Position numbers and translations under genes: made by a program. A DNA stretch of 64,000 nucleotides from a virus: positions 1-64,000 of IMG/VR virus record IMGVR_UViG_3300033233_000027; one strand, written 5' to 3'. Below, in pieces: positions 24,339 through 41,428 of the stretch (position 1 is the first letter of the stretch; each line of letters opens with the position of its first letter). Under the pieces are notes generated by a model. The model was not told the DNA's origin, searched no databases, and worked only from the letters and a program-made list of their open reading frames with translations.

Positions 24339-25036
24339 CCGAACACAAAAGGCTGCGGAGGCTTGGCATCGCGATTGATGCCGCCCCACCAGCCTATGGT
24401 GAAGTATTACGGACTCCTCTGGAGGACGACTTCGGGGGCATCCGGTTTGAAGTCGGTCGTGCTGTCCAATACGTAAAGGAAGGTGGCGCAGATCCGCTTG
24501 TGGTTGACACGGCGAGATATTGCGCGATGCTCGCGAGAGATACGGCAGAACAGCTTGGTTTTCCCGTAACTCCTGAGAACGCAAAGTTGATTGACCTGGA
24601 GGGGGTATTCCTTTGGGTCCAGGCCAACTTCGTTTACGTTGATGATCCAACTGGAGTGGAAGTGATGCAGACAGCACCTCGTATGCTCCGTCAGAAGATG
24701 ACGCCGCATGAAGTGCTGGAATGGATGTGGGCTCCGATTCGAGATGGAATGGCTCTTGCCCGCGGTATTGATCCATCGGAATTAAGCTGTCCTGAAGGAA
24801 AAGTGATCGGAGATTGCGAAGAGGCTGCCTGTCTTCTGTTGGCCATGGCTGCCGCTCTTGATATCGGTCCTCTGAAGTTCCGCTTCGGCGGGAATGATGG
24901 CCAACTCCACCATGTTTGGGCTTCTGCTATGGCTGGTGGAGAGTGGCGCGACATGGATGCTACTCAGCGCCAGTTAGGGTTCGATCAGTTTCTGCCATTC
25001 GACCACTTCGATGAACTGGAGGTCGAACTTCCGTGA
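24335..25036 (+). CDS. Transglutaminase-like cysteine protein
   Basis: 233 residues, starting in the ATGA overlap. The C-terminal half carries the transglutaminase/papain-like triad: Cys161 in IGDCEEAACLLLAMAAALDIG, His193 in QLHHVWAS and Asp208 in WRDMDATQ. Upstream DPLVVDTARYCAML and VQANFVYVDDPTGVEVMQTAP match the form I recall for phage transglutaminase-like proteins. It may cleave or cross-link virion proteins or peptidoglycan peptides. A paralogue at 44699 has Ser in place of the Cys. Confidence 0.8.
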   Translation: MTEHKRLRRLGIAIDAAPPAYGEVLRTPLEDDFGGIRFEVGRAVQYVKEGGADPLVVDTARYCAMLARDTAEQLGFPVTPENAKLIDLEGVFLWVQANFVYVDDPTGVEVMQTAPRMLRQKMTPHEVLEWMWAPIRDGMALARGIDPSELSCPEGKVIGDCEEAACLLLAMAAALDIGPLKFRFGGNDGQLHHVWASAMAGGEWRDMDATQRQLGFDQFLPFDHFDELEVELP

Positions 25037-25653
25037 TCCTAGGAAAATGGTCTGATGGGCCACGCCTCGGCGCGGTTGAGCTGGTTGAGCTAGGCTCAAT
25101 TCGTCGTCACGCCTCCATGGGTGGCTTCCTAGACTTCTTAGGTGGGTTCGCTGGAGAGGTTGCTGGATTCTTCGGGAGTGCTGTTGGCGCTGGGTTGGGA
25201 TTCCTTAAGGATGCGCTGAATGTCGGGCTGAAGCCGCTGATGGATGGGGTTGCGTCTGCCTTCACTGGGCTGGCAGATATCCTTCGGGAGATCCCGCTCA
25301 TCGGGGAAATCGTTGGTGGCCTCATCCTAGTTATCAACGCGGCCATTCAGACGCTGCTCTCTCTTCCGGGGCTCTTGATTGACGCGCTTCCGAAGATTCT
25401 TAAAGGACTGACCAGTTCGTTCTTTGGGGCGTACGGTAAGGATGAGCAGAGTTCAATCCTAAGCACGGTTCTGCCGAAAGTGGCCGCCAGAGCTCCAGAG
25501 CCGATTCGGAATGTCGTCAAGACCACGCTGGCTGAAACTAGGCCAGCGATTGACGGTTCGGTACAGCCACCCGAATCTGCGGGTGGAATTGATCCGCTTG
25601 TAATCGCCGGGGTCTCTGCCGCGGTTGTTGCCGCAGCTCTGATCGCGGCTTGA
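25033..25653 (+). CDS. Hydrophobic C-terminally anchored protein
   Basis: 206 residues from GTG in a GTGA overlap. The N-terminal tail has RLGAVELVELGSIRR, a motif shared with the small basic protein at 39647. The middle (30-135) is Gly/Leu-rich and amphipathic to hydrophobic, suited to lying in or on a membrane. The C-terminus is a single helix of Ala, Val and Ile running to the stop (DPLVIAGVSAAVVAAALIAA). Probable virion membrane protein. Confidence 0.7.
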   Translation: MILGKWSDGPRLGAVELVELGSIRRHASMGGFLDFLGGFAGEVAGFFGSAVGAGLGFLKDALNVGLKPLMDGVASAFTGLADILREIPLIGEIVGGLILVINAAIQTLLSLPGLLIDALPKILKGLTSSFFGAYGKDEQSSILSTVLPKVAARAPEPIRNVVKTTLAETRPAIDGSVQPPESAGGIDPLVIAGVSAAVVAAALIAA

Positions 25654-25688
25654 CCTATCCAAGGCCTATTTTTTTTGGAGAAGACACG

Positions 25689-26393
25689 ATGGCGGAGAAG
25701 AAGGGGGCGGGCACCAAGCCTGCCGGTTCCCGCCGCGGCGGGAACGTCGTGGTGGATCTCGGCGAGACGATTGACGACGTGATCGACGCCGCAGTCGAAG
25801 CTGGCTACAAACCAAAGCAGGGTTTGGGAGCGGCTGGTAACACGAAGCCAGGTGGGTATCGCCCTGGTTTCCTCGGTTCGAATTTCCGACCTGGTATCGG
25901 ATTCCGTCCGAGCGGTATTCATCCATCCAAGCTGGGTATGGCCCTCAATATCCAGAGGACCGTGGACACGATGAAGGTTTTGGGTGGGTCCATTGCGGGC
26001 ATGGCGTTCAACCGTGTTCTGTATCGAGCCATCCCGAAGGTGTCCACGTCCGTCACGTCGGAGCTGCTGGTCAATGGAGCGGCTGCCGTTCTTGGAGTCG
26101 CGCCCTACTTCCTTTTCAAGAAGGAAGGTCATGGAAGCGATTTCCTCGTCGGATTCGCGATCCCAGGCGTCGTGACATTCGCTGGATCGCTCTTCGACAA
26201 GCTCCTTGGCGCGGTCGCCTCCAGCGTCCTTCCGAAGCCGATGCTGTCTGGCCCGGATGCGTCCCGGCCAGCGACGGACGCGCATCGTGCTTTGGCGGAA
26301 GCCAACCGTACGCTTGACGCGCTCAAGGGCCGGATGGGCCTACAGCGTCAGACGGTTGTGTCTCTGCCACGGGTTCAGGGGGTGGCTTCTTAA
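25689..26393 (+). CDS. Glycine-rich membrane-associated virion candidate
   Basis: 234 residues, start at 25689 with SD TTGGAGAAG. Basic Lys/Gly/Arg N-terminal tail (KKGAGTKPAGSRRGGN), a Gly/Pro/Arg segment (KPGGYRPGFLGSNFRPGIGF), then three hydrophobic helices (VLGGSIAGMAFNRVLY, NGAAAVLGVAPYFLF, FLVGFAIPGVVTFAG) and a hydrophilic C-terminus. Last gene before the GC-rich hairpins upstream of the shell candidate. Confidence 0.7.
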   Translation: MAEKKGAGTKPAGSRRGGNVVVDLGETIDDVIDAAVEAGYKPKQGLGAAGNTKPGGYRPGFLGSNFRPGIGFRPSGIHPSKLGMALNIQRTVDTMKVLGGSIAGMAFNRVLYRAIPKVSTSVTSELLVNGAAAVLGVAPYFLFKKEGHGSDFLVGFAIPGVVTFAGSLFDKLLGAVASSVLPKPMLSGPDASRPATDAHRALAEANRTLDALKGRMGLQRQTVVSLPRVQGVAS

Positions 26394-26553
26394 TAAACAT
26401 CCGCAGAGGGGGAAGGCGCCAACCCGTCCCCCGGGGAGGGGGCGCAGGGCGCCCCAAGGGTCGGACGCGGGTGGCGCCTACCCCGTGCGCGGTGAAGTGT
26501 GTTTGTGAACGAACTGTAACTGTGAATAACTGAAACGAACGAAAGGGAAGACA
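26394..26553 (+). promoter_or_regulatory. GC-rich hairpin region and possible promoter before shell candidate
   Basis: A perfect 7-base stem GGGGCGC/GCGCCCC with a 3-base loop sits at 26439-26455, inside a very GC-rich stretch where further G/C arms pair. It could terminate the upstream operon. Downstream the sequence turns AT-richer, with TTGTGA (26503-26508), a 17-base spacer and ATAACT, a weak promoter match, then SD AAAGGGAAG. Independent control of the 26554 gene is likely. Confidence 0.5.
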
Positions 26554-27312
26554 ATGGGCGAAACGATGCGCGATTACATTCCGCAACGTCCTCAACGTAT
26601 CGGCATTTACGACAACAGCACCGGAAAGGTGACTGAGGCCGTCTATTCCGAGTGCGCTGACCAGACGCAGAGTGTTACTATCGCTTCTGGTACTGGCACG
26701 TACGATGTTACTCTCGAATTTCCCCAGACGCAAAACTCGGACTGCGATGCGACTCTTGGTCATGGAGTGGAGATCTCGTATCTCTCCGGTGGTGGTGCGA
26801 CCGGCATGACGATTGGAGATCTCGCCAAAGTCCTTACTTCGGGCACGATTGAAATCACTCGTGCTGGCCAGAAGTGCGTCGATCAGCGCGAGATGGCTCA
26901 GGCGAATTTCCTTGTTCAGTTCCAGGCTGAAGCTGCGTTGGCTGCTGGCCGCGTGGCTGCTGGATGGAATAATGAGCAGATTTATCGTGCTGGCCAGTGC
27001 ACGCCTATCATGCTCTATACGAATAGGGATGTGATTCTGGTCAGGCTCCGTGGAGCTCAGCCAGATGAAACCCAGGTTGTTGTCGTGAAGCTCATCTTTA
27101 CCCGCTACACGACGCAGCCAACGACTCCTTCCTGCGCACTCCTGCCGCTCGCTATCTTCCAGGGCTCTGCTTTCCCTGTGAAGTTCTACGAGAGTCTCCC
27201 AACCAGGGAAGCGCAGCCTTGGGATGTCGCTGATCTTTCTGGGGCTAACCAGGTGGCTACGCTTACGCATGGGGTTCAGCAGGGTCTTAGCGCGGAGCGT
27301 GGAATCGCGTAA
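26554..27312 (+). CDS. Candidate major shell or virion protein
   Basis: 252 residues, beta-rich, no signal or membrane segment. The region GVEISYLSGGGATGMTIGDLAKVLTSG...ITRAGQKCVDQREM and the strand-rich TPIMLYTNRDVILVRLRG plus VVVVKLIFTRY suggest a jelly-roll-like or beta-sandwich fold. Its own hairpin region upstream and a strong 14-bp terminator right after set it apart from its neighbours, as expected for the most abundant virion protein. No sequence match to a known capsid protein is recognised, so the capsid role is inference. Confidence 0.6.
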   Translation: MGETMRDYIPQRPQRIGIYDNSTGKVTEAVYSECADQTQSVTIASGTGTYDVTLEFPQTQNSDCDATLGHGVEISYLSGGGATGMTIGDLAKVLTSGTIEITRAGQKCVDQREMAQANFLVQFQAEAALAAGRVAAGWNNEQIYRAGQCTPIMLYTNRDVILVRLRGAQPDETQVVVVKLIFTRYTTQPTTPSCALLPLAIFQGSAFPVKFYESLPTREAQPWDVADLSGANQVATLTHGVQQGLSAERGIA

Positions 27313-27344
27313 CGTCTTCAGGGCGACCAGAAGGAACGTATTAC

Positions 27345-27375: not shown

Positions 27376-27404
27376 TTTCCATCACCTTCTGACGGTGTTG
27401 CTAG

Positions 27405-28013
27405 ATGACCGAACAACTAAATACAGATATTCCGTTCCTGCGACTAAAGGGGCAGCATGAAGTGCAAGGAGATTGCTTCATACGCCCATCGGACTTCTTT
27501 TTTGCAGAGAGATTCCAAAAGAAGGTAGAGGCACTAAAGAAATCGTCTCCACTCCTTGCTGAGGCGATCTGTTTTGCCCAGGCCTTGGGCCTGATGGAGC
27601 CTGCGGAAGCTCGTAGACCAGGGGCTGGCAATGCAGTAACCAGAACAAGGGTTGGAGTTACGGTTCCTCGAGCGACAGTAAATCCAGCTCAGCCTAATAT
27701 AATCATACCTGGGGTATTTGAAGCGTTCTCTACCTGTCCACCAATGGGCACGTTAGGAATCGCCGGTAAGATTGATGTTATTCCGGCGAATACGACTGCG
27801 ATCAGCTTCGGGCGTGTCTTCTATCAGCATATGATCGTTGGCGTAGGTAAAGATCTCTGTGTGGATTGGAATTTCCCAGACTGCCCAGGTTTTGTCACGA
27901 CGGCAGAAAACTTCTTCATATCCCCTACGGGGATCAGGGTTTTCCTTCAGAATAGGTCTAGGACAGGAGAGGCGCTGTTCTCCGTTGAGGCAGAAATATG
28001 GCCAGTGCTGTGA
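27405..28013 (+). CDS. Beta-rich probable virion protein
   Basis: 202 residues. Short helical N-terminal part (FFFAERFQKKVEALKK) and a beta-rich C-terminal domain of ~130 residues ending in VEAEIWPVL. No SD is evident. It follows the shell candidate, and with the 28051 protein forms a set of three beta-rich proteins; a minor shell or vertex protein is possible. No family recognised. Confidence 0.65.
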   Translation: MTEQLNTDIPFLRLKGQHEVQGDCFIRPSDFFFAERFQKKVEALKKSSPLLAEAICFAQALGLMEPAEARRPGAGNAVTRTRVGVTVPRATVNPAQPNIIIPGVFEAFSTCPPMGTLGIAGKIDVIPANTTAISFGRVFYQHMIVGVGKDLCVDWNFPDCPGFVTTAENFFISPTGIRVFLQNRSRTGEALFSVEAEIWPVL

Positions 28014-28050: not shown

Positions 28051-28446
28051 ATGGGGGTCGTAAGCGGAGGACCGATACCGTACATGATTCCCACCAGCCA
28101 GGACACGCTGAAGGTGGTTGAGTCGGATGTACCGCTCGCATTTGGCGGCGTGTTTAGTTCTGAGATAACCATCTTCCGTGGGTATTCGGTCTTATGTGCA
28201 TTGGTCATCACCGATCAGTCAACTTTGTTAGAAGTTACTGAACGGTGCGACTCAGACGCAGCAGATTTGAAAGATGGGGTAGTAACTGAGTCTGCATTGA
28301 CCGCAGTGGATCCAGTCACGGGGAAGAATTTCCTCTGCAAGCGATTTGAGCCATGCGGCAAATTCGGGAGTATCACGATCACAAACAAAGGCCTCATCGC
28401 TCAAACTTTCCTGCGACTGTGCGTCTACTTACTCCCTATCCGATAG
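28051..28446 (+). CDS. Small beta-rich probable virion protein
   Basis: 131 residues, SD AAGGTGAG. Strand pattern throughout (DTLKVVESDVPLAFGGVFSSEITIF...SITITNKGLIAQTFLRLCVYLLPI). Similar size and build to the 3103-3492 protein. Probably a shell-decoration or vertex protein (inference). Confidence 0.6.
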   Translation: MGVVSGGPIPYMIPTSQDTLKVVESDVPLAFGGVFSSEITIFRGYSVLCALVITDQSTLLEVTERCDSDAADLKDGVVTESALTAVDPVTGKNFLCKRFEPCGKFGSITITNKGLIAQTFLRLCVYLLPIR

Positions 28447-28459: not shown

Positions 28460-28741
28460 ATGGCGTCCTTGGCGGCAAGAATCGCGACTCTGGTAACGGA
28501 GCAGCAGAACGTCAAGCACGCCATCGAGAAAGAGGTTGAGGAGCGCCGTCGCGATCACGATGAACTCACGAAAGTAATAGGATCCGTGAGCAATCTGAAG
28601 GAAAAGATCGATACGTTGGATGGAGAGAAGAAGGAGAGGGACAAGGAGTCCCGCTCAAGAAACTGGCAGGCATGGTTCGCGATAGCTACGGCCCTTCTCG
28701 GGATTGTATTGACGCTCCTGAAAATCAAAGGGGCAGTCTGA
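28460..28741 (+). CDS. Coiled coil with C-terminal membrane helix
   Basis: 93 residues; the internal start MASLAARIA at 28460 lies 11 bases after the previous stop. Residues 10-65 form a coiled coil (EKEVEERRRDHDEL, VSNLKEKIDTLDGEKKERDK). A single hydrophobic helix ends the protein (WFAIATALLGIVLTLLKIKGAV). A tail-anchored coiled coil. This resembles some phage lysis-accessory or virion proteins; function unknown. Confidence 0.7.
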   Translation: MASLAARIATLVTEQQNVKHAIEKEVEERRRDHDELTKVIGSVSNLKEKIDTLDGEKKERDKESRSRNWQAWFAIATALLGIVLTLLKIKGAV

Positions 28742-28748
28742 GGTAGTC

Positions 28749-29240
28749 ATGAGTAAGAACATTCTCGTGGTTGAAGACGACGCGAAGCAGGCGCGGGAAA
28801 TGACTACCCTTCTCAGAAAATGCGGGTACAAGGCTTCCTATGTCTTGTCGTCTGAAGAGGCGATCTGTGTCTGCGGAGCAGAGAAATTCGACTGCCTCGT
28901 AGTGGATTACTGCATGCCGCAGATTGATGGCGTGAAGTTTGTTCGTACCCTACGCCAGTCTGGGGCGCATACTCCAGTAGTCATACTTACAGCCTCAGAT
29001 AAGGTAAAGGTGGAGGCGGCAGTTGACGACCTTGAGGTGTGGAACGTACTGGAAAAGCCTACGGGCATGAAAGAGCTCGGAGAGAGCATCGAAGAGGCGT
29101 GCGAGTGGTTTGAGATGCCTCCAGAGGTCGTAAACGAGCTTGAGAAGCAACTAGAAGAAGAAACGAAGCACATAGGCGAAATGCGTCGTGATCTGGACGA
29201 TGAAACGAAAATCCTTCCTCCTTTTGGGAGAGTTCTATGA
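28749..29240 (+). CDS. Response-regulator receiver protein
   Basis: 163 residues. CheY-like receiver domain with all phosphorylation residues: acidic pair E9-D10-D11, phospho-acceptor Asp53 (LVVDYCMP), Thr81 (ILTASD) and Lys103 (VLEKPTG). The C-terminal ~45 residues are an acidic coiled coil, not a DNA-binding domain. Receivers normally take phosphate from a histidine kinase. One embedded in a virus structural/lysis operon, start 8 bases after the previous stop, is unusual. It could tap a host signalling pathway; target unknown. Confidence 0.88.
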   Translation: MSKNILVVEDDAKQAREMTTLLRKCGYKASYVLSSEEAICVCGAEKFDCLVVDYCMPQIDGVKFVRTLRQSGAHTPVVILTASDKVKVEAAVDDLEVWNVLEKPTGMKELGESIEEACEWFEMPPEVVNELEKQLEEETKHIGEMRRDLDDETKILPPFGRVL

Positions 29241-29548
29241 TCGGACAGTGGGATCTCGTGTCGTATCCTGGCCTGATCGCTGCGGTGGTCGCATTGATCG
29301 GAGTCACGAAGAAGCTGTGGAAGCCATGGGTCAAGGGGAAGGAACCGATGCTTGCGGTTGCTCTCTCTTATGTTCTCGGCATATCCTCCAAGCTGACGAT
29401 CCCCAAGGCGTTCCAAGGAATCTACTGGGTTCCATTCCTAGTTACGCTCGTGTTCGTGGCGATGGCGGCGATGTCAGCGCATGACCGCATCGTGAATCAA
29501 GTTCTGGCTGGCAAGCCAGCGCCAGATTCGTCAAAACGAACCCCCTGA
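29237..29548 (+). CDS. Holin-like three-helix membrane protein
   Basis: 103 residues starting in the ATGA overlap. Three hydrophobic segments: PGLIAAVVALIGV, MLAVALSYVLGISS and WVPFLVTLVFVAMAAM, with a charged tail. Size and topology fit a class I holin, and the following gene is a small lipoprotein. No endolysin is adjacent, so lysis function is inference. Confidence 0.55.
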   Translation: MIGQWDLVSYPGLIAAVVALIGVTKKLWKPWVKGKEPMLAVALSYVLGISSKLTIPKAFQGIYWVPFLVTLVFVAMAAMSAHDRIVNQVLAGKPAPDSSKRTP

Positions 29549-29587
29549 TCGTGTACTTTTTTTGAAATGCGGAATAGGATGTCGCAG

Positions 29588-29830
29588 ATGAGAAGAATTG
29601 TGACTGCGCTGGCGATCTGTGCAGTGCTTTCCTTCGCGGGCTGCTCCACGGTGGATCGTAACGCCGTGAACCAGATTGAAGTCACCCACGCCCAGATCCT
29701 ACCGAAGTACCTTGAGTACGTATCCAAAGATGCCACGCTCTCTGATCCTCAAAAAGAGGATCGCAAGAAGCTGGTAGAAAGCCTCCAGCGAATCGTGGCA
29801 GCACTCAAGAAGTCAGCGGGAGGGGAGTAA
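29588..29830 (+). CDS. Small lipoprotein, possible spanin-like
   Basis: 80 residues from the ATG at 29588 (in-frame ATGs lie 9 and 21 bases upstream). N-terminal RRIVTALAICAVLSFAGC is a lipoprotein signal with lipobox FAGC, so it would be lipid-attached at that Cys. The mature part is ~62 residues, helical. Size and position after a holin-like gene suit an outer-membrane spanin subunit, but it lacks the usual proline content. A diderm host is implied weakly. Confidence 0.65.
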   Translation: MRRIVTALAICAVLSFAGCSTVDRNAVNQIEVTHAQILPKYLEYVSKDATLSDPQKEDRKKLVESLQRIVAALKKSAGGE

Positions 29831-30744: not shown

Positions 30745-31536
30745 ATGCAGAAACACAGATTGCTGTTTCCTGCGGGTAGGCTTCTTGGTCCAATTCCAGT
30801 GTCCCGACCACATAGCGTTCTAGTCAAGTATCAGATGGGACAGGTGGATTACGGAGATGAATCTCCACCTCCAGATCAGCCCGCAGAACCTACTCCACCA
30901 GTAGAGACGCCCCCTGACTACAGCTGGGATGTTCCACCTGGCCAAGAGATATCTCCATACTATCCACCAGAAGGGGCACCTCCCGACTACAGTTGGGATG
31001 TTCCACCTGGCCAAGAGGTATCGCCATACTATCCACCAGAAGAGCCCCCTAAAGATTACTGGAGTGATCCATGGGCTGAGGAGCCGCCTACATCTCCATA
31101 CGAGCCGATAGGTGTAGAGCCAGTTACAAGCGAACAAAAAAAAGCAGATGAGCAAATAAAAGCTGAGAAGACTACTGGAAAAAAGACGGCGTTGGTTATC
31201 AAGGATCTCCTTGCTGGGGTTCCGGCTGGGTCGTCTGCCTGGGCTTCCTATGCAACCCAGTTAGACAAATGTATGACGATGCTCAATTCCAGCGATGCCA
31301 TCAAAGTGATTGGTGGAGGGGCGTGTCTCTACTCGCTCTATCAAAGCGTCCATGACTATGTGAACAAGAGGGATGACGACGAAGCTGCGGCTAGGAAAGC
31401 TAAAGAAGACATTGAACGCGCTGCGGCAGCGGCCAGAGCTGCCGGCAATGCGGCAGCTGATCGGGCGAATCCTAGCGAATGGATGTGGATCTTGGCGGGA
31501 GGGGCCGTGGCTGCTGCTATAGTGGCCATCGCGTAA
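30745..31536 (+). CDS. Tail-anchored virion candidate with proline-rich repeats
   Basis: 263 residues. The basic N-terminal tail reads MQKHRLLFPAGRLLGPIPVSR; then comes a proline-rich region with two near-identical 23-residue repeats (DYSWDVPPGQE, SPYYPPE), a conserved domain also present in the next gene (SAWASYATQLDKC...GGGACLYSLYQSVHDY), an Ala-rich charged helix and a C-terminal membrane helix (WMWILAGGAVAAAIVAIA). The ATG at 30745 is preferred because the paralogue's SD spacing requires the equivalent ATG. Tandem duplicate of 31549. Confidence 0.72.
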   Translation: MQKHRLLFPAGRLLGPIPVSRPHSVLVKYQMGQVDYGDESPPPDQPAEPTPPVETPPDYSWDVPPGQEISPYYPPEGAPPDYSWDVPPGQEVSPYYPPEEPPKDYWSDPWAEEPPTSPYEPIGVEPVTSEQKKADEQIKAEKTTGKKTALVIKDLLAGVPAGSSAWASYATQLDKCMTMLNSSDAIKVIGGGACLYSLYQSVHDYVNKRDDDEAAARKAKEDIERAAAAARAAGNAAADRANPSEWMWILAGGAVAAAIVAIA

Positions 31537-31548: not shown

Positions 31549-32043
31549 ATGCAGAGATCAAGAATGCTGTCTCAAGCGGGTAGGTTTCTTGGATCCATTC
31601 CTATTGCCAGCAAACGCATCCTTCCAATCCACTATCGGCTTGGACAATTGGATTACGGAACGGATGAACAGTCCGCTGGTGCTCAAACTGCTTCTGCGGT
31701 CAGGCAACTCCTCAGTGCGCTACCGCAGGGTTCGGCGGCCTGGATTTCGTATACGAATCAATTAGACAACTGCCTGTCGATGCTAAACTCAAACACACTG
31801 ACTGGGGTGGTCGCTGGAGGTACGTGCCTTTACTCGCTATATCAGAGCGTACGTGACTACCTTGACAGGAAGAACGAAGAAGAAGCTGCCGCACAGAGAG
31901 CTAAAGATGCAGAACGTATTGCCGCAGAAGCAAAAGCTAAAGCAGACGCCGCAGCCGCAGCAGCTCGGGCGAGTGCCAGTAGCGACTGGCCTTGGATCTT
32001 GGCTGGAGGAGCTGTGGTTGCCGCAGTAGTTGCCTTTACGTAA
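31549..32043 (+). CDS. Tail-anchored virion candidate, paralogue of previous gene
   Basis: 164 residues, SD AAGGAGG ending seven bases before the ATG. Same architecture as the 30745 protein without the proline repeats: basic tail RMLSQAGRFLGSIPIASKR, shared domain AAWISYTNQLDNCLSMLNS and GGTCLYSLYQSVRDYLD, Ala/Lys/Glu helix and C-terminal anchor WPWILAGGAVVAAVVAFT. The duplication then diverged by gain or loss of the repeat block. Confidence 0.72.
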   Translation: MQRSRMLSQAGRFLGSIPIASKRILPIHYRLGQLDYGTDEQSAGAQTASAVRQLLSALPQGSAAWISYTNQLDNCLSMLNSNTLTGVVAGGTCLYSLYQSVRDYLDRKNEEEAAAQRAKDAERIAAEAKAKADAAAAAARASASSDWPWILAGGAVVAAVVAFT

Positions 32044-32288: not shown

Positions 32289-34046
32289 ATGCCTTACCAG
32301 ACTCCCTATTCACAGCCACCGCCTCAGCAGCCTGGATCTGTTGGGGTTCCGCTTCCTGGGCTAGTTCCGATTGGAACACTAGCAAATGTCCCTACCTATT
32401 TTGTCGGAGTCTCTAAGGCGATGGCCAATGTGGACGCGCTTGTGGCAACACCAGATGGGCAATACAGACGCCCTATTGCTGGAGAACTTGCTGCGGCAGT
32501 CTTCTTATCTAAACCAGGCCAGTCGATGGAGCCAGATGGGTCTGATCTGATTCCCCAGGCCGTTGCGGCAGTTGCTGGAATGAAGCCTCCAGCAACTGCT
32601 GAATCTGCCTCTTGGGCACCTCCATCCTCTCCTAGTTGGTCGTGCGGCTCAGCTTTGTATCCGATCATAGGAGCAGGAGCATCGTTCTCTGTAGCGGATG
32701 GAACTCCAGCGACATGCCCAGATGGATCCGTTGCGGATCGATGTGTGGTTGCTTTCATATCAGGGGATGGTCTTGAGGTATTTCCTAAGGGCTTTTCTTT
32801 CACGCTCATGGCCCCGGTGCAGTGGAATATACAGCAATTCGACTTCATGGCCGCCCAATCCGTTGCCGTACTGTTCCCATCCAATGTCAGTCAGATCGTA
32901 AAAGATGTGCTCTCTACCCGAGGTATGAAGGAGGCGTTCAGAACGAGAGCCCCATCTCCGCTTGGAACAACACCGCCATTTGCTCAATCAATCTACGCAA
33001 TATCAGTTCCTCCAACTCCAGCATTCCACCGCGGGGACAACATAGATGAGATCCCTGTATTGGATATGGAGGAGGTAGAATCGAGATGGAATCAACTTCA
33101 CTCAGTTCTGGATGAAGTTCCGTGGTTCAAGATCGGTTCCTACGACTTGATTTTCGACTGTTCAGGGAATGTGCCTATCGGGACGCTCCGTGATGGGCGG
33201 AAGGTCGTATGGGATGAGCCGAGACTCTACGCTCCAAGCCTGAGCGATTACTTCCCGAAGTCAAAGGCAGAAATACACGCTTCGCTCGCTACGGCGATCG
33301 GTGCTTCCCTTGAAAGCATCTTCGGGTGCGTAGCTTCTAGCCTGAAAGTGAAAGCGGAGCGTGCGGAAAAACAGGGGAAAATGATCGGTACGATTGAAGT
33401 AATCGTCGGTGGTACACTAATGATCTTCGGGGCGATCCCACCAAACTTCACCATGCTCGGGCATGGGGCTGGTCTAGTATTTCCTCAATACGCAAACTGG
33501 ATTGGGATCGTCTCAAAAGCAATGGATACTGCCATCGGATTCGCTTTAGCTGGATTGGGAACAGCTGTCACGTCACTGGTCGAGCAGGTGAATTCTGGAA
33601 TGGTGAAGGATCTGATGGGTCAATTGTCTAAATTGATAGACTCCGGTGTTGGAGATAGCGCAAAGAAACTAATGGAAGCGGCGCTAAGCATCCAATCCAT
33701 TGAGGGAATTTCTGCTCCGTTTCTTTTGTGGACCATCATGGCCCCAAAGCTCGGTCCTGTCCTTGCCATGGGTTCTTCCCTGCTCGGCATAGACGTGGAT
33801 CTGAAGAAGGACGTGATCGATCCGCTCATTGCCAAGGCAGAGGCAAGCGGGATGAGCGTTCCAGACTATCTCAGATCGATGGCGGCTGAGAACGCAGCTG
33901 GTGCGGAGCGGGCCAAGCAAGTTGCCAAGGGTGAAGCCTCTCTGGAAGAATCGGATCTTGGAACTGGGGAAGGACTCGGAACATTCGGAACCGCAGCTCT
34001 TGTCGGTGGAGGATTGGCTGCGGTCTATTTCTCTGGATTGCTGTGA
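32289..34046 (+). CDS. 585-residue probable virion protein with hydrophobic C-terminal half
   Basis: Proline-rich N-terminus, then a soluble domain to ~330 containing IFDCSGNVPIGTLRDG, then alternating hydrophobic and amphipathic helices (TIEVIVGGTLMIFGAIPP, AIGFALAGLGTAVTSL, FLLWTIMAPKLGPVLAMGSSLL) and a final anchor TAALVGGGLAAVYFSGLL. No SD is seen before the ATG. Size and membrane character suggest a vertex, spike base or membrane pore. No homologue recognised. Confidence 0.7.
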   Translation: MPYQTPYSQPPPQQPGSVGVPLPGLVPIGTLANVPTYFVGVSKAMANVDALVATPDGQYRRPIAGELAAAVFLSKPGQSMEPDGSDLIPQAVAAVAGMKPPATAESASWAPPSSPSWSCGSALYPIIGAGASFSVADGTPATCPDGSVADRCVVAFISGDGLEVFPKGFSFTLMAPVQWNIQQFDFMAAQSVAVLFPSNVSQIVKDVLSTRGMKEAFRTRAPSPLGTTPPFAQSIYAISVPPTPAFHRGDNIDEIPVLDMEEVESRWNQLHSVLDEVPWFKIGSYDLIFDCSGNVPIGTLRDGRKVVWDEPRLYAPSLSDYFPKSKAEIHASLATAIGASLESIFGCVASSLKVKAERAEKQGKMIGTIEVIVGGTLMIFGAIPPNFTMLGHGAGLVFPQYANWIGIVSKAMDTAIGFALAGLGTAVTSLVEQVNSGMVKDLMGQLSKLIDSGVGDSAKKLMEAALSIQSIEGISAPFLLWTIMAPKLGPVLAMGSSLLGIDVDLKKDVIDPLIAKAEASGMSVPDYLRSMAAENAAGAERAKQVAKGEASLEESDLGTGEGLGTFGTAALVGGGLAAVYFSGLL

Positions 34047-34059: not shown

Positions 34060-34617
34060 ATGAAACTCGGGGCTGCGGTCGATCCATCCTTCATTGCTGG
34101 ACTGGACGATCTAGCTGACGCCGCTCTCTATGAGGGTGCGCAGGCCTCAATGGTGTACGCAAAGCAAGTGGAGGCTTATCTCTCCAATCAATCTTCTACG
34201 GTAGCTGTCCCAGGAGTAACGCCGCCACTCTATTACCTAGAGGCTCGGCCTCATCTGAACGAAGTTCGGATGATCCTGGTGGAATGGATGTCACGTTTAG
34301 CGGAAACGGCGAAGTCCTACGGATCGCAACGTCGTGCTTTCGAGGCCATCACCCTGGCTTCGTCGCTACCTAGCATTCCGCAGCCAAAAGATACCATCGG
34401 ACAACTAGCGTCCGTCATCACTCCTGAGCATGCGGCGATCAGTGCCCAGTTAGTCGCATCAGAGACAGGGGCGCTCCGTGATGCGGTGGCGGGGCTTCAG
34501 GCGCGACTCGCATCTGCACAAGGAGCTATTGCAGCTCCGATTGAAGAACCGATTAGCACGGCGACAATTGGCCTGGCCGCAGGACTTGTCGCCATAGTCC
34601 TTTGGGCGATATCATAA
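34060..34617 (+). CDS. Tail-anchored helical protein
   Basis: 185 residues from the ATG at 34060, 13 bases after the previous stop; the longer frame starts inside the 32289 gene. Helical body with HLNEVRMILVEWMSRLAETAKSYG and a coiled segment near residue 145, then a membrane helix reaching the stop (ATIGLAAGLVAIVLWAIS). Virion membrane protein by context. Confidence 0.7.
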   Translation: MKLGAAVDPSFIAGLDDLADAALYEGAQASMVYAKQVEAYLSNQSSTVAVPGVTPPLYYLEARPHLNEVRMILVEWMSRLAETAKSYGSQRRAFEAITLASSLPSIPQPKDTIGQLASVITPEHAAISAQLVASETGALRDAVAGLQARLASAQGAIAAPIEEPISTATIGLAAGLVAIVLWAIS

Positions 34618-35014: not shown

Positions 35015-35317
35015 GTGAATGCGATACTTGGAGCTGATGCCGTGATAGGATTCGCCCAATCCTGGCCTGGATGGGCTGAAAAGGCCGGCATCTACTCCTT
35101 GGCGCATGAGTTGCAATCGGAAATCGATAGGGGCGCGTGGGGGAGGGATGGAGAAAGATCGGCGCGGATAGGGAGGATCCTCGGGCTCGCAGAAGCGAGG
35201 CTTGAGGCGGCAGTTGCGAAAGAAAGTTCGGCTGGTACAGAGCCCTCAATGGAGGGCATGGCAACCATGATGTCAATGCTCAGCAGCGCAGTCTGGATCT
35301 GCGTTCTCGTGCTCTGA
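35015..35317 (+). CDS. Small tail-anchored protein
   Basis: 100 residues from GTG. Amphipathic and charged body (ELQSEIDRGAWGRDGERSARIGRILG) and a C-terminal hydrophobic helix MMSMLSSAVWICVLVL ending at the stop. Continues the series of C-terminally anchored proteins. Confidence 0.6.
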   Translation: MNAILGADAVIGFAQSWPGWAEKAGIYSLAHELQSEIDRGAWGRDGERSARIGRILGLAEARLEAAVAKESSAGTEPSMEGMATMMSMLSSAVWICVLVL

Positions 35318-35445: not shown

Positions 35446-36159
35446 ATGGCTATGGCAAGTATCCCCTCCGGTGGAGGTGGACTAAGGCTTGAGTCGTATG
35501 CGGCTCCAAAACAGAGCGTCCAGATTCAGCAGAGGTCGATGGCTAAAAACTCTTCTGAGGACTCGTGCCCAGAATGCGGAATCGGTAATGGTTGCGGGTG
35601 CTTGGCCAAGGTAACTATGGGCAAGGCGAAGTGTGACGGAAAATGGGGGGAGGGCGGGGCAGTACCGGAGATCAGTAGAAAAGTGCCGATTATAGTTCGA
35701 GCCAAGCCGATGCCTGGAACCGAACGGAGCGGAATCAACTACCCTCCGATGGGTCAGCCATCGAAGAAAGGTATCGCGCTAGGACAGAATGCTTACGGCT
35801 TCAGTCATGCGGCCACAACGGAAGAAGTTACATCGCTCCTGCGGTCCCTAGAAAAGGCACTCGCAGATGTGGCCGCTGCGGCTGACGGACAGAACGCCCC
35901 AGCTTGTGTCCGCGACATCATGGCGGGATCGTATCTGCTGGCTAAGAAGACCGCAGAAAAGATGCGCAACTTCATCATGGCAAATGTGCCAAAAGTAGAG
36001 TGGCTATTGACTGATGGTGAGGCGGCAGTTGCTGGTGAAGTCCTGAAATGTGCAGCAACCTTGCAGTCATCCAGCACTAAGATGGAATCGGATGACACTG
36101 GGATGGCTGCTGCCATCGCTCTTGGGCTTGGGGCCCTCGTTCTTTTCTTCGTCGTGTGA
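35446..36159 (+). CDS. Tail-anchored protein with N-terminal Cys cluster
   Basis: 237 residues. The N-terminal region has SCPECGIGNGCGCLAK with a later Cys (AKCDGKW), a possible zinc or disulfide knot, after a basic tail. The middle is helical (SLLRSLEKALADVAAAADG, LAKKTAEKMRNFIMANV). C-terminal anchor GMAAAIALGLGALVLFFVV ends at the stop. Probable virion membrane protein. Confidence 0.65.
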   Translation: MAMASIPSGGGGLRLESYAAPKQSVQIQQRSMAKNSSEDSCPECGIGNGCGCLAKVTMGKAKCDGKWGEGGAVPEISRKVPIIVRAKPMPGTERSGINYPPMGQPSKKGIALGQNAYGFSHAATTEEVTSLLRSLEKALADVAAAADGQNAPACVRDIMAGSYLLAKKTAEKMRNFIMANVPKVEWLLTDGEAAVAGEVLKCAATLQSSSTKMESDDTGMAAAIALGLGALVLFFVV

Positions 36160-36508: not shown

Positions 36509-36775
36509 ATGAAACGTCCAACGGGTTCCGTTGGAGTATCCAAGACTTTCAAGGTGTCCAAGAAGATCAGAGGAGCAGAGGTGTCCGCTCCTGGCTTGGG
36601 AAGGGCCCTAGTTGCGGTAGTGAAGGTATCGAAATATAGATATGTGGTGGCGGCTCCGAAGGAGCTCGGAGGAGCGAAGTCCGTTCCTGCTGACTCTTTC
36701 ACGGATGCGCTGCACTGGACCGTGTCGCAAATGAACACAAAGGCGAAGAGAGAGGCGAAGGGGAAAAAACGATGA
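36509..36775 (+). CDS. Small basic protein
   Basis: 88 residues, Lys-rich at both ends (KTFKVSKKIRG; MNTKAKREAKGKKR) with a beta centre (RALVAVVKVSKYRYVVAA). SD-like GGAG. Overlaps the next gene as ATGA. A DNA-binding or core protein is plausible. Confidence 0.55.
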   Translation: MKRPTGSVGVSKTFKVSKKIRGAEVSAPGLGRALVAVVKVSKYRYVVAAPKELGGAKSVPADSFTDALHWTVSQMNTKAKREAKGKKR

Positions 36776-37245
36776 ATCAACCAATGCCAATCATGCTCCG
36801 TCCGTCCGGTATACGACTTCCAGTCATGCTTCCATCTACGGTAAGGTCCTCAGCTAACCCGATTATCAGGTCCGCAGCGCGGCCACCAGCTCTGGCTGGT
36901 GTCAAGCTCGGACAGGCATGGAAAGAAGCAGGCCTCCTTGACTTTCCTATATTTGCCATTGCCCGAGATGGCGGTGCCACCATGTTGGGTCTCTTGGTGG
37001 CCATGCAGCATCGGGGTATCAATACAGTCATGGGCGTAATCGGCCTTGTGACTGGAGCTCTCGGTGGGATTGGATTGGCGAATGACTTGTGGAAAGTAGC
37101 ATTTGATAAGCCGCTCATCGGAATGGAATCAAAAGATTTTGGAGCCCTCTTCATCACCGCGGGCGTTGTAGGAGCCCTCGGCTATCTCATGTTCGGAAAC
37201 CCAGGATCGACAGCCTCAAGGGCCCTCAAGAAGGTGACTGCGTGA
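36772..37245 (+). CDS. Multi-helix membrane protein with basic N-terminal tail
   Basis: 157 residues. N-terminal 45 residues are Pro/Arg/Ile-rich (MLRPSGIRLPVMLPS), matching the module's tail motif. Then three hydrophobic helices (GGATMLGLLVAMQ, VMGVIGLVTGALGGIGLA, GALFITAGVVGALGYLMFG) and a short basic end. It may form a membrane channel in the virion. Confidence 0.65.
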   Translation: MNQPMPIMLRPSGIRLPVMLPSTVRSSANPIIRSAARPPALAGVKLGQAWKEAGLLDFPIFAIARDGGATMLGLLVAMQHRGINTVMGVIGLVTGALGGIGLANDLWKVAFDKPLIGMESKDFGALFITAGVVGALGYLMFGNPGSTASRALKKVTA

Positions 37246-37994
37246 TCCAAAGAACCACCCTGCCGATCCGTCTGGCCAGACCGAAGATGGCGATGCCGGC
37301 TTTGCTTGGGTTCGTTCCCCCGAAATCACATCCACAGTTAGGTGCCGGACTCATCTCTGACCTACTTGGGGTGGATGTCCCAAAAATAGGAGTAGCGGCG
37401 ATCTTGGCTGCTGGAGGCGTAGGAGCCTTGTTCGCTACTAAGATACTTCCTGAACCATTCAATACAGTAGCCGCTATCGGTGGCGTTGGCTTACTGGGTA
37501 TTTCAATATACGAGTTGATCGATTCCTTTGGTGGTCCATCGGAAGCATCAAAAATACAAAGCGGTGAGACCGTGGATCTCACCACGCATCCGAGGGTAAC
37601 TCCGCAGGAGGTTCAGGATAAAAAGGTAGACGCTCGCTTCATTGAGCCACTTGAGAATGCGAATGTCTTGAAAAATCCGTTCAGATCTGGCGCATACGTA
37701 CCAACGAAGCTGATCGTAACAAATGATACAGGCAGATTGGTCACGGTTCGCCTTCTGTTCCAGGTAGTTGAGGGTGATGGATCTGTAAACTCCTATCACG
37801 AAGACAGGATGGCCGATCAAGGAACAAACACAAGAACATTTGATGCCCCGATAACTTCATACAGTGCTTTCTCGTGGCCACCCTGGCAACCAACAAGTGC
37901 GTGTGTCCAGGTTCGTGCAACGACGATAGAAAATGGGGTGGAGATTAAATATCCAGGTGGATGGGACGATCAGCGGTGCTTCAATGTCATATAG
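37242..37994 (+). CDS. Membrane protein with C-terminal beta-sandwich domain
   Basis: 250 residues, GTG start in a GTGA overlap. Tail LPIRLARPKMAMP, two hydrophobic helices (VAAILAAGGVGALFA; TVAAIGGVGLLGISIYELI), then a ~150-residue soluble domain with an Ig-like strand pattern (KLIVTNDTGRLVTVRLLFQVVEG...CVQVRATTIENGVEIKY). A membrane-mounted spike or vertex protein is a reasonable guess. Confidence 0.65.
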   Translation: MIQRTTLPIRLARPKMAMPALLGFVPPKSHPQLGAGLISDLLGVDVPKIGVAAILAAGGVGALFATKILPEPFNTVAAIGGVGLLGISIYELIDSFGGPSEASKIQSGETVDLTTHPRVTPQEVQDKKVDARFIEPLENANVLKNPFRSGAYVPTKLIVTNDTGRLVTVRLLFQVVEGDGSVNSYHEDRMADQGTNTRTFDAPITSYSAFSWPPWQPTSACVQVRATTIENGVEIKYPGGWDDQRCFNVI

Positions 37995-38027
37995 ACCTAG
38001 AGCAGAGCCAATGTTTAGGGTAAACAG

Positions 38028-38300: not shown

Positions 38301-39220
38301 GCGATTTCCTGAGAGATCCAGAAGGCCTGATCGATGCCTTGCGGGACTACTCGCCAGATGGCGTTCATGTCCTATCCCCGCTAGGTGGAGGAACGATCCG
38401 CCATCAGATCTATGGTAGGGAATTGGATATCAGCAAAACGCTTCCTGTCGCTTCGTTCCGAGTGGATCTGGACGATCCAATTCCGTTTGAAGAACACGCC
38501 GCAAAACTGAGGCTCTCTCCAGAAAAGATGACCGAGAAAGAACTACGAAAACTCTGGCGGGGCCATGAGCCTCCATTTCCAAGCGAAGTTCTGGAGCGCG
38601 GACTGAGCATGATGGACATCGAAGAGATGTCTTTCAGGAACATGGAATGTCTGGATGACGAAAGACGGATCGTCTGCTATGTCTTCGGCTGGAGAGACCT
38701 TGTCGTGGATCCTCTATTCCCTGGGGCCATGGTGGAATACGAAGAGGGCCGCAGTGGTGTTGCCTCCAAAGGAATATTGCCTGGAAGAGTCGCTGGAGGT
38801 GACAAGTCAATCGTCTTCCTGGAACTGTTCGAGCCGATGACTGCATCGGAAGCTAACCAACTCAATACCGCGCCATCAGCTATTCAATCTGGATTCTACA
38901 GTAAAAAAACTGTAGCGATCGGCGGAAATACATGGGATGCATGGACGGTTTCAGATCCAGATTCCCTCCCAAAGGGAGATAGAGTTGAGATCGGTGGAGG
39001 AGAATACGAGGTCAGGCTGGACGAGCCTCTTGATCTATCCAAGATTGCTGAATTCTGCTCCAAGCACTACCCAGATGAGCCTGCCTGTGTCTGGCAGTCG
39101 CTCCTCTTCTTCGTACTTCCGCTCAACGCCAACAAAGGGGGAAGATTCCATCCGCTTCGTGCTGGTCAGGAAGGTACGTACATGGATGCGCTGGAATGGG
39201 AGATCGGGCACGGATTATGA
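38297..39220 (+). CDS. Protein of unknown function in the virion module
   Basis: 307 residues, soluble, alpha/beta, with RHQIYGRELDISKTLPVASFRVDLDD, EEMSFRNMECLDDERRIVCYVFG and a C-terminal CVWQSLLFFVLPLNANKGGRFHPLR. No catalytic signature recognised. Start in the ATGA overlap with the cationic gene. Confidence 0.65.
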   Translation: MSDFLRDPEGLIDALRDYSPDGVHVLSPLGGGTIRHQIYGRELDISKTLPVASFRVDLDDPIPFEEHAAKLRLSPEKMTEKELRKLWRGHEPPFPSEVLERGLSMMDIEEMSFRNMECLDDERRIVCYVFGWRDLVVDPLFPGAMVEYEEGRSGVASKGILPGRVAGGDKSIVFLELFEPMTASEANQLNTAPSAIQSGFYSKKTVAIGGNTWDAWTVSDPDSLPKGDRVEIGGGEYEVRLDEPLDLSKIAEFCSKHYPDEPACVWQSLLFFVLPLNANKGGRFHPLRAGQEGTYMDALEWEIGHGL

Positions 39221-39278
39221 GAGAGGAATTCTTTGAGCGAGCGGGGGTGCGTGGTATCATCCCCGCTGGGAGAGACGC

Positions 39279-39650
39279 ATGAAGGTATCGGCTAGGCTTG
39301 GCACAGGTGGATGCCCCTCTGGGAAGATTCGCAGGAAGGCCTACACGACGCGTAAGGGCGTTCATGTCAAGTCATCATGCGTTCCTGACAAGGGAACGAA
39401 AGGAAAGGGTCCAAAAACTCTTCCAACACCGAGGCCTGGCTCGCTCGAGGGCTGGAAGAAGGATCTCCCATCAACGGAGCGCCACGCCATCCTGCACGAT
39501 ATCACCAAGCGCGAAGGGTGCGGCGTAGCCATAAAAAAGCTGACGCTTCTCCAGAACATCACGGCTGATGCGGCAACGAAGCGCACAGCCAAGACAGACA
39601 AGAAGTGGCTGAGAGGCCAGGGATTCTGCGAGCTTGCGAGGGGAAAATGA
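39279..39650 (+). CDS. Cationic protein resembling a giant-virus basic family (DUF5771-like)
   Basis: 123 residues. The pattern IRRKAYTTRKGVHVKSSCVPDKGTKGKGPKTLP, here in pieces KIRRKAYTTRKG, VKSSCVPDKG and KGKGPKTLP, then RHAILHDITKREGCGVAIKKLTLLQN, closely follows what I recall of DUF5771, a small basic family of nucleocytoplasmic large DNA viruses: RKAYTRK, a VP..KDRGKPGKG loop, a RHxAL helix and a C-terminal KLNAL. The match is from memory, not a search. A DNA-packing or core role would fit the charge. It overlaps the next basic gene as ATGA. Confidence 0.6.
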   Translation: MKVSARLGTGGCPSGKIRRKAYTTRKGVHVKSSCVPDKGTKGKGPKTLPTPRPGSLEGWKKDLPSTERHAILHDITKREGCGVAIKKLTLLQNITADAATKRTAKTDKKWLRGQGFCELARGK

Positions 39651-39904
39651 AAACGAAGCTCGGGGCCATAGAACTGGTGGAACTCGGTCGCGCCTCAAAG
39701 CGCGTCTGCGCTAGGGCAGTCAAGAGCGGTAAGCGGTGGGTCGTGCGCACCTCAGATGCGGGTTCCGGTGCCGGCAGGAACTGGATTGAGGCTCCGTGCC
39801 TTCGCAGCAAGAAGAAGTCGAAGGCGCGTACGTTCCTGACTCGCTCCATCGCAGAAGCCCATGCGCGAAAGTGCGGAATCATGCTGTGCCGAAAAGGAAA
39901 ATGA
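39647..39904 (+). CDS. Small basic protein with LGAIELVELG motif
   Basis: 85 residues; start at 39647 in the ATGA overlap. N-terminus TKLGAIELVELGRASKR shares LGA[IV]ELVELG with the membrane protein at 25033. The remainder is cationic with three or four Cys (RVCARAVKSGKRWVVR, APCLRSKKKSKARTF, CGIMLCRKGK). Probable core protein; the shared motif may be a docking signal. Confidence 0.6.
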   Translation: MKTKLGAIELVELGRASKRVCARAVKSGKRWVVRTSDAGSGAGRNWIEAPCLRSKKKSKARTFLTRSIAEAHARKCGIMLCRKGK

Positions 39905-39946
39905 GTCGGTAATATACTTTTGACTAGGACGAAAGGGGGGATAGGA

Positions 39947-40726
39947 ATGCAAGCGAGACCACTGGGGTATTATGGGCGTATCAAGCCTTCACCAATCAGG
40001 ATCCCGCAAGGTGCCCGCTCAGCGGCACTTGGAGCTGCGATCATTCTGGATCAGCAACTTGCCGCAAGCGTAATCCAGCGATGGAATGGGGCGAATCAGG
40101 GAAAGAACGAAGCCCTAGCTGTACTCACTAACTTCCCGTACGATACAGCTCCAGTAGGTTCATATTCGCAACTGGATGGGGCCGTTACCAACTTTGAGAC
40201 GCTCAACGGATCGGCTGGAATCGTAAGCCTTGTAGGAAAAGCTACCCTAGTTCTTCAAAACAACGCACCCTCCTTCACGTCACAGGAAGAACTACAGGCT
40301 CTTAATGCGCTGGAGAACATGGGGCATCTGCTACAGAAAGCAGCTCAGGCGCTGATGAGTATTCCTCCTCCGACCCCAGCCCAACCGCCACAAGGCATTC
40401 TCCTGTCGGCCGCAGAGGCTAATGGATACAACGCTGCCGTGCAGTCGCTTCTCGAGGCTATCGGACTGCTTGGAACCCCAGCCATCTTGGTGCCGCATAA
40501 GGCTGCATTGCAGGCGCTTTCTGGCAACTTGCAGACATCCCCAGTCTATGTGCCACCCAACTTTGCCTCCACAATCCAGGCGGCTTCTGATGCGGTTACG
40601 ACTGAGAGGAATAGACAGGCTGCGTTGGCCCAAACAGGACAGACTCCAGTTGCTGGAGATCAGACCGCGCTCTACGTTGGCGGTGGCGTTGCGCTTACTG
40701 CCTTGCTCCTTATTGCGTTTGCCTAA
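39947..40726 (+). CDS. Tail-anchored virion candidate
   Basis: 259 residues; start MQARPLGYYGRIKPSPIRIPQG at 39947 with SD GAAAGGGGGG. Helical body containing two related segments (NALENMGHLLQKAAQALMS and AAVQSLLEAIGLLGTPAILVPHKAALQALS), the second shared with the next gene. C-terminal anchor TALYVGGGVALTALLLIAFA ends at the stop. A 6-base hairpin (40736-40750) follows. Paralogue of 40772. Confidence 0.7.
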   Translation: MQARPLGYYGRIKPSPIRIPQGARSAALGAAIILDQQLAASVIQRWNGANQGKNEALAVLTNFPYDTAPVGSYSQLDGAVTNFETLNGSAGIVSLVGKATLVLQNNAPSFTSQEELQALNALENMGHLLQKAAQALMSIPPPTPAQPPQGILLSAAEANGYNAAVQSLLEAIGLLGTPAILVPHKAALQALSGNLQTSPVYVPPNFASTIQAASDAVTTERNRQAALAQTGQTPVAGDQTALYVGGGVALTALLLIAFA

Positions 40727-40771
40727 ACCTATGATGCGGGCTATGCCCGCAATATGAATTGGAGAATAGCG

Positions 40772-41428
40772 ATGAATCAGCCGATCAGACTCGCACGACA
40801 ATTTTCTCCCATCGGAAAGTCGATCCGCCTTGCTGGTGCCCGTCTTGGGAATCCAGATACATTCCTGTCGGATTCTCAGGCATCTGCGGTCAGGCAGGGC
40901 GCACAGACGCTTCTGCAAGCGATCGGGGCGTTGGGAAATCCAGCTAGTCTTTCTTCCTGGAAAAACTGGCTTGAGACCTTCTCGTACAGGCTTCAGCAGC
41001 CACCAGTTTATGTGGCAGATGACTACACCTCCACTCTCCAGGGGGCGTCCGATGCAATTGCGGCAGAGAACGCTAAGCAGGGTGGCCAGGTCCCGACGAT
41101 GTTCCTCTACGCCGAAGAGGCGGCTCCATGGTCTGAGGCAGCTAAAGCGATTCTAGCTGAGATGGGAAATATCGGTAATCCAGCATCCTTGGCCCAGCAT
41201 AGGAGTAATCTGGAATCCCTAGTCTCGCAGTTCTCAGATGTCAAGCAGGATACCACGGGTCGAAATTATGTCGTGGTTCGATCTGATTATGGCCAGAGGA
41301 TTGAAAACGCCAGAGCTGCTACGCAGCAGGCAAAGGCTTCTCCAACCGCCTCAACTGGTCCATCTACGGTCGAAGTGGCTGGTGTAATTGGAGTGATCGG
41401 CCTCGGCCTCTGGCTCGCGTTGGGTTAA
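40772..41428 (+). CDS. Tail-anchored virion candidate, paralogue of previous gene
   Basis: 218 residues, start MNQPIRLARQFSPIGKSIRL at 40772 with SD TTGGAGAAT. Two internal repeats (GAQTLLQAIGALGNPASLSSWKNWLETFS and AAKAILAEMGNIGNPASLAQHRSNLESLVS) resemble the repeat in the 39947 protein. C-terminal helix VEVAGVIGVIGLGLWLALG ends at the stop. Another tandem pair in the module. Confidence 0.7.
   Translation: MNQPIRLARQFSPIGKSIRLAGARLGNPDTFLSDSQASAVRQGAQTLLQAIGALGNPASLSSWKNWLETFSYRLQQPPVYVADDYTSTLQGASDAIAAENAKQGGQVPTMFLYAEEAAPWSEAAKAILAEMGNIGNPASLAQHRSNLESLVSQFSDVKQDTTGRNYVVVRSDYGQRIENARAATQQAKASPTASTGPSTVEVAGVIGVIGLGLWLALG

Follow-up and report, generated by a model that had tools for sequence, protein, structure and literature searches.

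The described virus closest to the DNA considered here is SSIP-1, a tailless phage with an internal membrane, a T=49 architecture and a circular double-stranded DNA genome of 43.8 kb (PMC6260650, PMC6356626), which was described as resembling almost nothing in GenBank (PMC6356626) and in which gp40 is the predicted packaging ATPase (PMC4124505). A survey of prokaryotic double jelly-roll viruses reported genomes of roughly 7-18 kb only (PMC5894146). The tailless membrane viruses of the Helvetiavirae (formerly Sphaerolipoviridae; P23-77, SH1) have two single jelly-roll capsid proteins, usually a packaging ATPase, and genomes of ~16-30 kb. We analyzed the IMG/VR virus record IMGVR_UViG_3300033233_000027, whose bases 1-64,000 form the window; the rest of the 77,684-base record was retrieved and genes were called on the whole. 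In our judgment this genome very probably comes from a bacterial virus that has no tail, contains lipid membrane in its virion and is related to SSIP-1, distantly and at a much larger size. Genes are named below by their first coordinate.

Both ends of the record carry the same exact 120-base repeat, which is unique and sits inside a collagen-like gene. A mere artefact of collagen repeats was considered and rejected, as other copies of the motif are about 72-79% alike over comparable lengths and reach at most ~84% over short ones. Because these copies are far less alike, and because joining the ends yields one complete collagen-like gene of 443 amino acids with proper N- and C-terminal parts, the record is taken to be complete and circular, with a length of 77,564 bp; statements of absence therefore carry meaning.

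The link to SSIP-1 comes from gene 24335, a transglutaminase-like gene with an intact catalytic triad (GDC, LHHVW and RDMD). Against a profile made from SSIP-1 gp34, the uncultured relative R1 and further relatives, with no window sequences in it, 24335 reached an E value of 4.5e-13 and its paralogue 44699 one of 4.3e-7, and these were the only matches among 102 window proteins; the match to 24335 extends into the region ahead of the catalytic core. Direct comparison of 24335 with the SSIP-1 proteome by phmmer gave E 3e-7 to gp34, which is annotated as a structural protein. Both proteins are transglutaminase-like, with 24335 under the Pfam cut-off. A tblastn search of 24335-25036 over 50,697 phage records returned SSIP-1 gp34 and nothing else, at an E of 0.8 that has little meaning alone, and an E of 3e-45 for 24335 was set aside as circular, since the protein was itself part of that profile. 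The window, SSIP-1 and R1 also have a gene order in common: a coiled-coil or disordered protein, the transglutaminase-like protein, one or more anchored proteins, three or four small strand-rich proteins, a holin-like protein and a lipoprotein. Apart from the transglutaminase-like gene, these equivalences are drawn by position, size and type only. A gp34-family gene heading the virion module is one feature of the SSIP-1-like lineage seen here, and a genome that appears to be circular double-stranded DNA and to be free of terminase, portal and tail genes is another.

A third feature is the array of proteins ending in a single hydrophobic helix, which the first-pass annotation of this DNA had described. 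An anchor was called as a hydrophobic 19-residue segment, with two limits on its distance to the C-terminus, 5 and 10 residues. At the 5-residue limit all ten named module proteins qualify (25033, 28460, 30745, 31549, 32289, 34060, 35015, 35446, 39947 and 40772), against 1.3 expected if segments were placed at random in the module (z ~8). This bears out the listing of 28460 as similar in form; the minus-strand gene 555-1091, for which the same form had been noted, also ends within 5 residues of such a segment. Two anchors, those of 31549 and 32289, are marginal, with Kyte-Doolittle values <1.6. At the 10-residue limit, where 41481 is also counted, 11 of 31 module proteins are anchored (35%), as opposed to 5/69 (7%) in the rest of the genome. 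The same count gave 8/24 (33%) for SSIP-1 ORF33-57 (open reading frames 33 to 57) and 5/23 for R1; for other tailless phages it gave 0/20 (PRD1), 3/18 (PM2) and 5/33 (P23-77), and for tailed phages 1/46 (lambda) and 1/30 (N4), i.e., 2-3%. Fisher's test returned p = 1.4e-5 for the module versus lambda and N4 together, and p = 1.0 for the module versus SSIP-1. The array is genuine and a property of the virion module; among the known phages compared SSIP-1 is the nearest in anchor share. The genes concerned, further genes of the module and three genes outside it are as follows.

22080-24338 (+): 752-amino-acid protein with much coiled coil and disorder; placed like SSIP-1 ORF33, no family match
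24335-25036 (+): transglutaminase-like protein with Cys-His-Asp triad; relative of the SSIP-1 structural protein gp34
25033-25653 (+): C-terminally anchored protein, 206 amino acids; 4-base overlap with the transglutaminase-like gene
25689-26393 (+): weakly hydrophobic protein, 234 amino acids; one weak hydrophobic segment
26554-27312 (+): strand-rich shell candidate, 252 amino acids, from position and composition only
27405-28013 (+): strand-rich shell candidate, 202 amino acids, from position and composition only
28051-28446 (+): strand-rich shell candidate, 131 amino acids, from position and composition only
28460-28741 (+): C-terminally anchored coiled-coil protein, 93 amino acids, by hydrophobic-segment count
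28749-29240 (+): response-regulator receiver domain protein, within the virion module between two membrane-protein genes
29237-29548 (+): two-helix holin-like protein; same place as SSIP-1 ORF49 and R1 19230
29567-29830 (+): small lipoprotein with lipobox FAGC; place of the lipoproteins SSIP-1 ORF50 and R1 19622
30745-31536 (+): C-terminally anchored protein, paralogue of 31549, by segment count and comparison
31549-32043 (+): C-terminally anchored protein (marginal), paralogue of 30745, by segment count and comparison
32289-34046 (+): 585-amino-acid protein with marginal C-terminal anchor, by segment count
34060-34617 (+): C-terminally anchored protein, by segment count
35015-35317 (+): C-terminally anchored protein, by segment count
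35446-36159 (+): C-terminally anchored protein, by segment count
36772-37245 (+): protein with two hydrophobic helices, by segment count
37242-37994 (+): two hydrophobic helices at the N-terminus, strand-rich towards the C-terminus, from sequence features
39279-39650 (+): protein with CPSGKIRRKAYTTRKGVHVKSSCVPDKGTKGKG, from its sequence
39947-40726 (+): C-terminally anchored protein, paralogue of 40772, by segment count and comparison
40772-41428 (+): C-terminally anchored protein, paralogue of 39947, by segment count and comparison
41481-41918 (+): two hydrophobic helices near the C-terminus, by segment count
555-1091 (-): C-terminally anchored protein outside the main module, by segment count
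16535-17857 (+): DnaB-type helicase, the sole convincing Walker A protein of the genome, from family scans and a Walker A scan
44699-45430 (-): transglutaminase-like paralogue with Ser replacing the catalytic Cys; 38% identity to 24335, profile E 4.3e-7

The description of 36772, 37242 and 41481 as multi-helix proteins holds, whereas 25689, listed with them, has a single weak segment. A match of 25689 to R1_16303 (phmmer E 0.001) was rejected as a helical protein set against a strand-rich one. In the IMG/VR scans no close relatives were found for 22080, 27405, 39279 or the pair 30745/31549. The CPSGKIRRKAYTTRKGVHVKSSCVPDKGTKGKG of 39279-39650 recalls what we take to be a motif of giant-virus small basic proteins; no relative of this protein was found in IMG/VR or among cultured phages.

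The first-pass annotation had seen no tail, portal or terminase gene in the 20 kb of the module, had allowed that tail genes might lie outside the window, and had named a terminase-portal-tail set elsewhere in the genome as a finding that would speak against a virion with a bilayer. When the proteins called on the whole genome were scanned against Pfam, PHROGs and NCBIfam, no terminase, portal, HK97 capsid protein, tail tube or credible tape measure was among the matches listed, so the absence extends beyond the window and the set sought elsewhere did not turn up. Because collagen repeats filled the listed PHROG matches for one half of the genome, that half was rescanned without the collagen-like proteins, and large unknown proteins were scanned singly; no such gene was among the matches listed there either. 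A tape-measure match of 25033 (PHROG 305, E 0.009) was rejected, as it falls on a hydrophobic stretch of a 206-amino-acid protein. Searching all six frames of the genome for TerL_ATPase, Terminase_6N and FtsK_SpoIIIE gave no match, with control genomes positive, and a six-frame Walker A scan of open frames of at least 60 amino acids returned DnaB and five matches unlike P-loops. The FtsK/HerA-type packaging ATPase that had been proposed as a search target was therefore not found, and neither a terminase nor a packaging ATPase is recognizable in the sequence. The genome appears to lack the large terminase, portal and HK97 capsid protein that mark Caudoviricetes, the homologous packaging ATPase that marks Helvetiavirae, and the gp40-type predicted packaging ATPase that is a feature of the SSIP-1-like lineage.

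These scans and the anchor counts bear on the idea of a tailed phage in which terminase, portal and tail genes have diverged beyond recognition, the anchored proteins then being membrane proteins for host takeover. Most module proteins have no known relatives and homology need not be recognizable, and the collagen-like genes resemble tail-fibre families. Against this, a terminase would have a Walker A motif, which is convincing here in DnaB only, tailed controls show only 2-3% C-terminal anchors, and both marker gene and gene order suit a phage without a tail; the collagen-like genes were rejected as tail fibres, as those matches are driven by the collagen repeats. We consider a divergent tailed phage very unlikely. 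We judge just as improbable a plasmid-like or satellite element that builds no particles itself and has kept old virion genes. Its integrase, C5 methylase, toxin-antitoxin-like and glycosyltransferase genes are common plasmid cargo, and neither a packaging ATPase nor a capsid protein was recognized, but the module is intact and co-directed, with >30 genes and an SSIP-1-like marker gene and order; moreover, the transglutaminase-like marker had no match in 72,556 plasmid records, and no relaxase or partition family was among the Pfam matches listed.

The reading of a tailless membrane virus related to SSIP-1 draws further on relatives found through the transglutaminase-like gene. With the R1 and SSIP-1 alignment as query, seven viral and 22 bacterial or archaeal contigs were found to carry it. 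An earlier contig scan with a three-way core alignment gave no matches, the 24335/44699 pair used alone as query found no relatives in IMG/VR, and searching the genomes of the relatives with 24335 by a BLAST-type method proved too insensitive. Four viral relatives, all uncultured, are circular by end repeats of 127-144 bases: R1 (IMG/VR 3300032893_000195, 35.4 kb), V12 (3300030707_000046, 35.0 kb), V15 (3300028835_001661, 35.6 kb) and V16 (3300029258_002338, 70.2 kb). Like the window genome they have the transglutaminase-like gene and C-terminally anchored proteins, and V16 is also large. Unlike it, they have a predicted jelly-roll family, A8, or its relative, together with an adjoining small-protein family, both unrecognizable in the window.

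Family A8 is one of the small-protein families conserved in the bacterial loci described below; V15, V16 and the contig L013 have it too, as does R1 at lower similarity. AlphaFold gave a confident strand-rich model (predicted local distance difference test, pLDDT, 80), for which the top PDB match was the capsid protein of Sulfolobus polyhedral virus 1 and lower ones were SH1, PBCV-1 and P23-77 VP17, all at E >0.001. Among viral models the top match was I1ZBH9 (211 residues, E 5e-5), with I1ZBI0 (256 residues) lower; from their lengths and consecutive accessions we infer that these are SSIP-1 gp46 (211 amino acids) and gp47 (256 amino acids), which could not be confirmed. Because of this model and its fold matches, the cluster travelling with the transglutaminase-like gene probably includes a single jelly-roll capsid protein. 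In the Nitrospira phylum the A8 profile had matches in 3 of 296 genomes, and in the Bryobacteraceae phylum in 2 of 297 (already known genomes counted); in cultured phages it found nothing except one weak match (E 0.05). In many bacterial loci (Nitrospira, Methylomonas, Bryobacteraceae, Verrucomicrobia and others) genes for a conserved group of small proteins come after the transglutaminase-like gene. In contigs L018-L036 the gene stands in bacteria with a conserved capsid-like gene set; these are apparently unlabelled proviruses of Nitrospira, Acidobacteria, Verrucomicrobia, methanotrophs, KSB1 and actinobacteria. R1, V12 and V16 have Walker A proteins of putative role only; V15 (L049-L050), a complete circular relative with the jelly-roll family, has no convincing one. 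Because V15 also lacks it, a packaging ATPase may not define the SSIP-1-like lineage, and the absence of a packaging motor of its own may be a property of part of that lineage.

These relatives also bear on the suggestion of a pleomorphic or spindle-shaped membrane virus that has no icosahedral shell and is coated mainly by the anchored proteins. The many anchored proteins and the lack of a recognizable capsid protein and packaging ATPase agree with it, yet the marker gene and gene order tie the genome to the icosahedral SSIP-1 and to relatives with predicted jelly-rolls, the holin-like and lipoprotein genes suggest release by lysis, and 77.6 kb is large for pleomorphic and spindle-shaped viruses. 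We regard it as very unlikely, too.

Nevertheless, several points weigh against a tailless virus with a shell and a membrane. The three shell candidates, 26554, 27405 and 28051, match no jelly-roll family, A8 included, and had neither a PHROG match nor a credible PDB sequence match; 27405 and 26554 had no match in phage records, and when the window's shell candidates were compared profile to profile with families from SSIP-1, R1 and proviruses, the scores stayed at chance level. Single-sequence AlphaFold modelling of 27405 reached a pLDDT of 34, with no usable fold. By sequence the closest relatives share only the transglutaminase-like gene, the Walker A scan and FtsK search of the genome found no packaging ATPase where SSIP-1 has a predicted one, and the virus is known here from its genes alone.

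Set beside SSIP-1, the window genome is alike in its circularity, transglutaminase-like gene, similar gene order, lack of tailed-phage genes and the one third of virion-module proteins that are C-terminally anchored. It differs in being nearly twice as long, in having no gp40-like P-loop ATPase, in the sequences of its candidate capsid proteins and in its transglutaminase-like protein, which unlike gp34 has no anchor of its own and has a paralogue. The similarity to the Helvetiavirae lies in the relatives' A8, the fold of which weakly matches SH1 and P23-77 proteins; at the sequence level no link between them and the window was found. Because the capsid fold is at the candidate stage and the test for a packaging ATPase was negative, we assign the genome neither to Helvetiavirae nor to any family. 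The parallel first drawn with PRD1 and PM2 (Tectiviridae and Corticoviridae) stands as regards taillessness and the many small membrane proteins, but not for C-terminal anchoring, absent in PRD1 and limited to three proteins in PM2; their capsid protein is a double jelly-roll and they possess a packaging ATPase, and neither was recognized here. The tailless virion with a predicted lipid bilayer is thus favoured by the negative search for a tailed-phage gene set and by a transglutaminase-like gene, gene order and anchor share that match SSIP-1. The idea of an undescribed lineage does not wholly survive, SSIP-1 being an isolated, if unclassified, relative. Together with the four circular relatives and the proviruses or provirus-like loci, the window genome suggests that SSIP-1 stands for a wide lineage hardly covered by current phage gene libraries.

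For the proposed tailless membrane virus, we infer the shell fold, bilayer, N-terminal processing and packaging mode as follows. The genes at 22.0-42.4 kb would form the virion module, and the DnaB-type helicase with a DnaD-like loader would replicate the circle. About ten late-module proteins would enter the host membrane by their C-terminal helix, an arrangement that suits post-translational insertion as in tail-anchored proteins, and would lie in the bilayer beneath a jelly-roll shell formed by 26554, 27405 and 28051. The shell would assemble on this membrane, coming to surround a vesicle as the shells of other membrane phages do, and release may pass through the holin-like 29237 and the lipoprotein 29567. 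The tyrosine recombinase at 60437-61225 suggests a temperate life.

The transglutaminase-like protein is a presumed part of the virion and may be a cysteine protease that trims other virion proteins at a (K/R)LG(A/Q) motif close to the N-terminus. The pattern [LM]G[AQNTI] occurs within the first 70 residues of 16 of 32 module proteins, against 5.2 expected from shuffled sequences, and the stricter [KR][LM]G[AQNTI] in 8 of 32, against 0.6; the rest of the genome has no excess. Because a transglutaminase-like cysteine enzyme lies beside proteins with this motif, maturation cleavage is the obvious hypothesis, and (K/R)LG(A/Q/N/T/I) is a possible maturation site. We would like to note that the motif was defined after the sequences had been looked at and that SSIP-1 and R1 do not show it, and for these reasons we treat it as a lead only. 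The joint proposal that a tailless membrane phage of 77.6 kb gets its DNA into the capsid with no motor encoded by the virus and that its transglutaminase-like protease matures virion proteins at N-terminal (K/R)LG(A/Q) seems to us doubtful. Filling would then use a host motor, be coupled to DnaB, or have the shell assemble around condensed DNA. If true, such N-terminal maturation would recall adenoviruses and giant viruses, and a member of 77.6 kb without a recognizable packaging ATPase would question two expectations: that a phage with a large genome has a tail and a terminase, and that the packaging motor of a tailless membrane phage is encoded by the phage itself.

Just ahead of the virion module lie a fatty-acid hydroxylase gene (18833-19381, +), which had no match in phage records, and a MobA-like nucleotidyltransferase gene (21385-22083, +); their products could alter lipids or sugars. 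A collagen-like family with a common GGGFRxGGGG start (1-547 joined to the record end, 1513-2565, 62305-63177 and record 63282-64142 on the minus strand) offers candidates for a spike or fibre. Record 70220-74380 (-; L001:10220-14380) encodes a protein of 1386 amino acids that combines several glycosyltransferase domains with a single methyltransferase domain. The integrase and C5 methylase genes were among the family matches, as were a DUF2442/DUF4160 (DhiT-type) toxin-antitoxin-like pair at 53558-54215 (-), an AbiEii-like nucleotidyltransferase at L001:7385-7978 (-) and a YukD-like ubiquitin-fold protein at 42434-42733 (-). Genes for tRNA-Gln (TTG; 44266-44337) and tRNA-Ile (TAT; 57089-57160) are both on the minus strand. 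Finally, a MAGEMxW N-terminus is common to otherwise unrelated small minus-strand proteins (one reads MAEEMSW and one MAGELSW), with starts at the following positions:

record 4194, 4907, 6109, 12315, 69155, 69491 and 69861, and a 25-amino-acid frame at 68220 (-): MAGEMxW-type starts

Because the DNA upstream of these genes is not alike, MAGEMxW looks like a protein-level tag.

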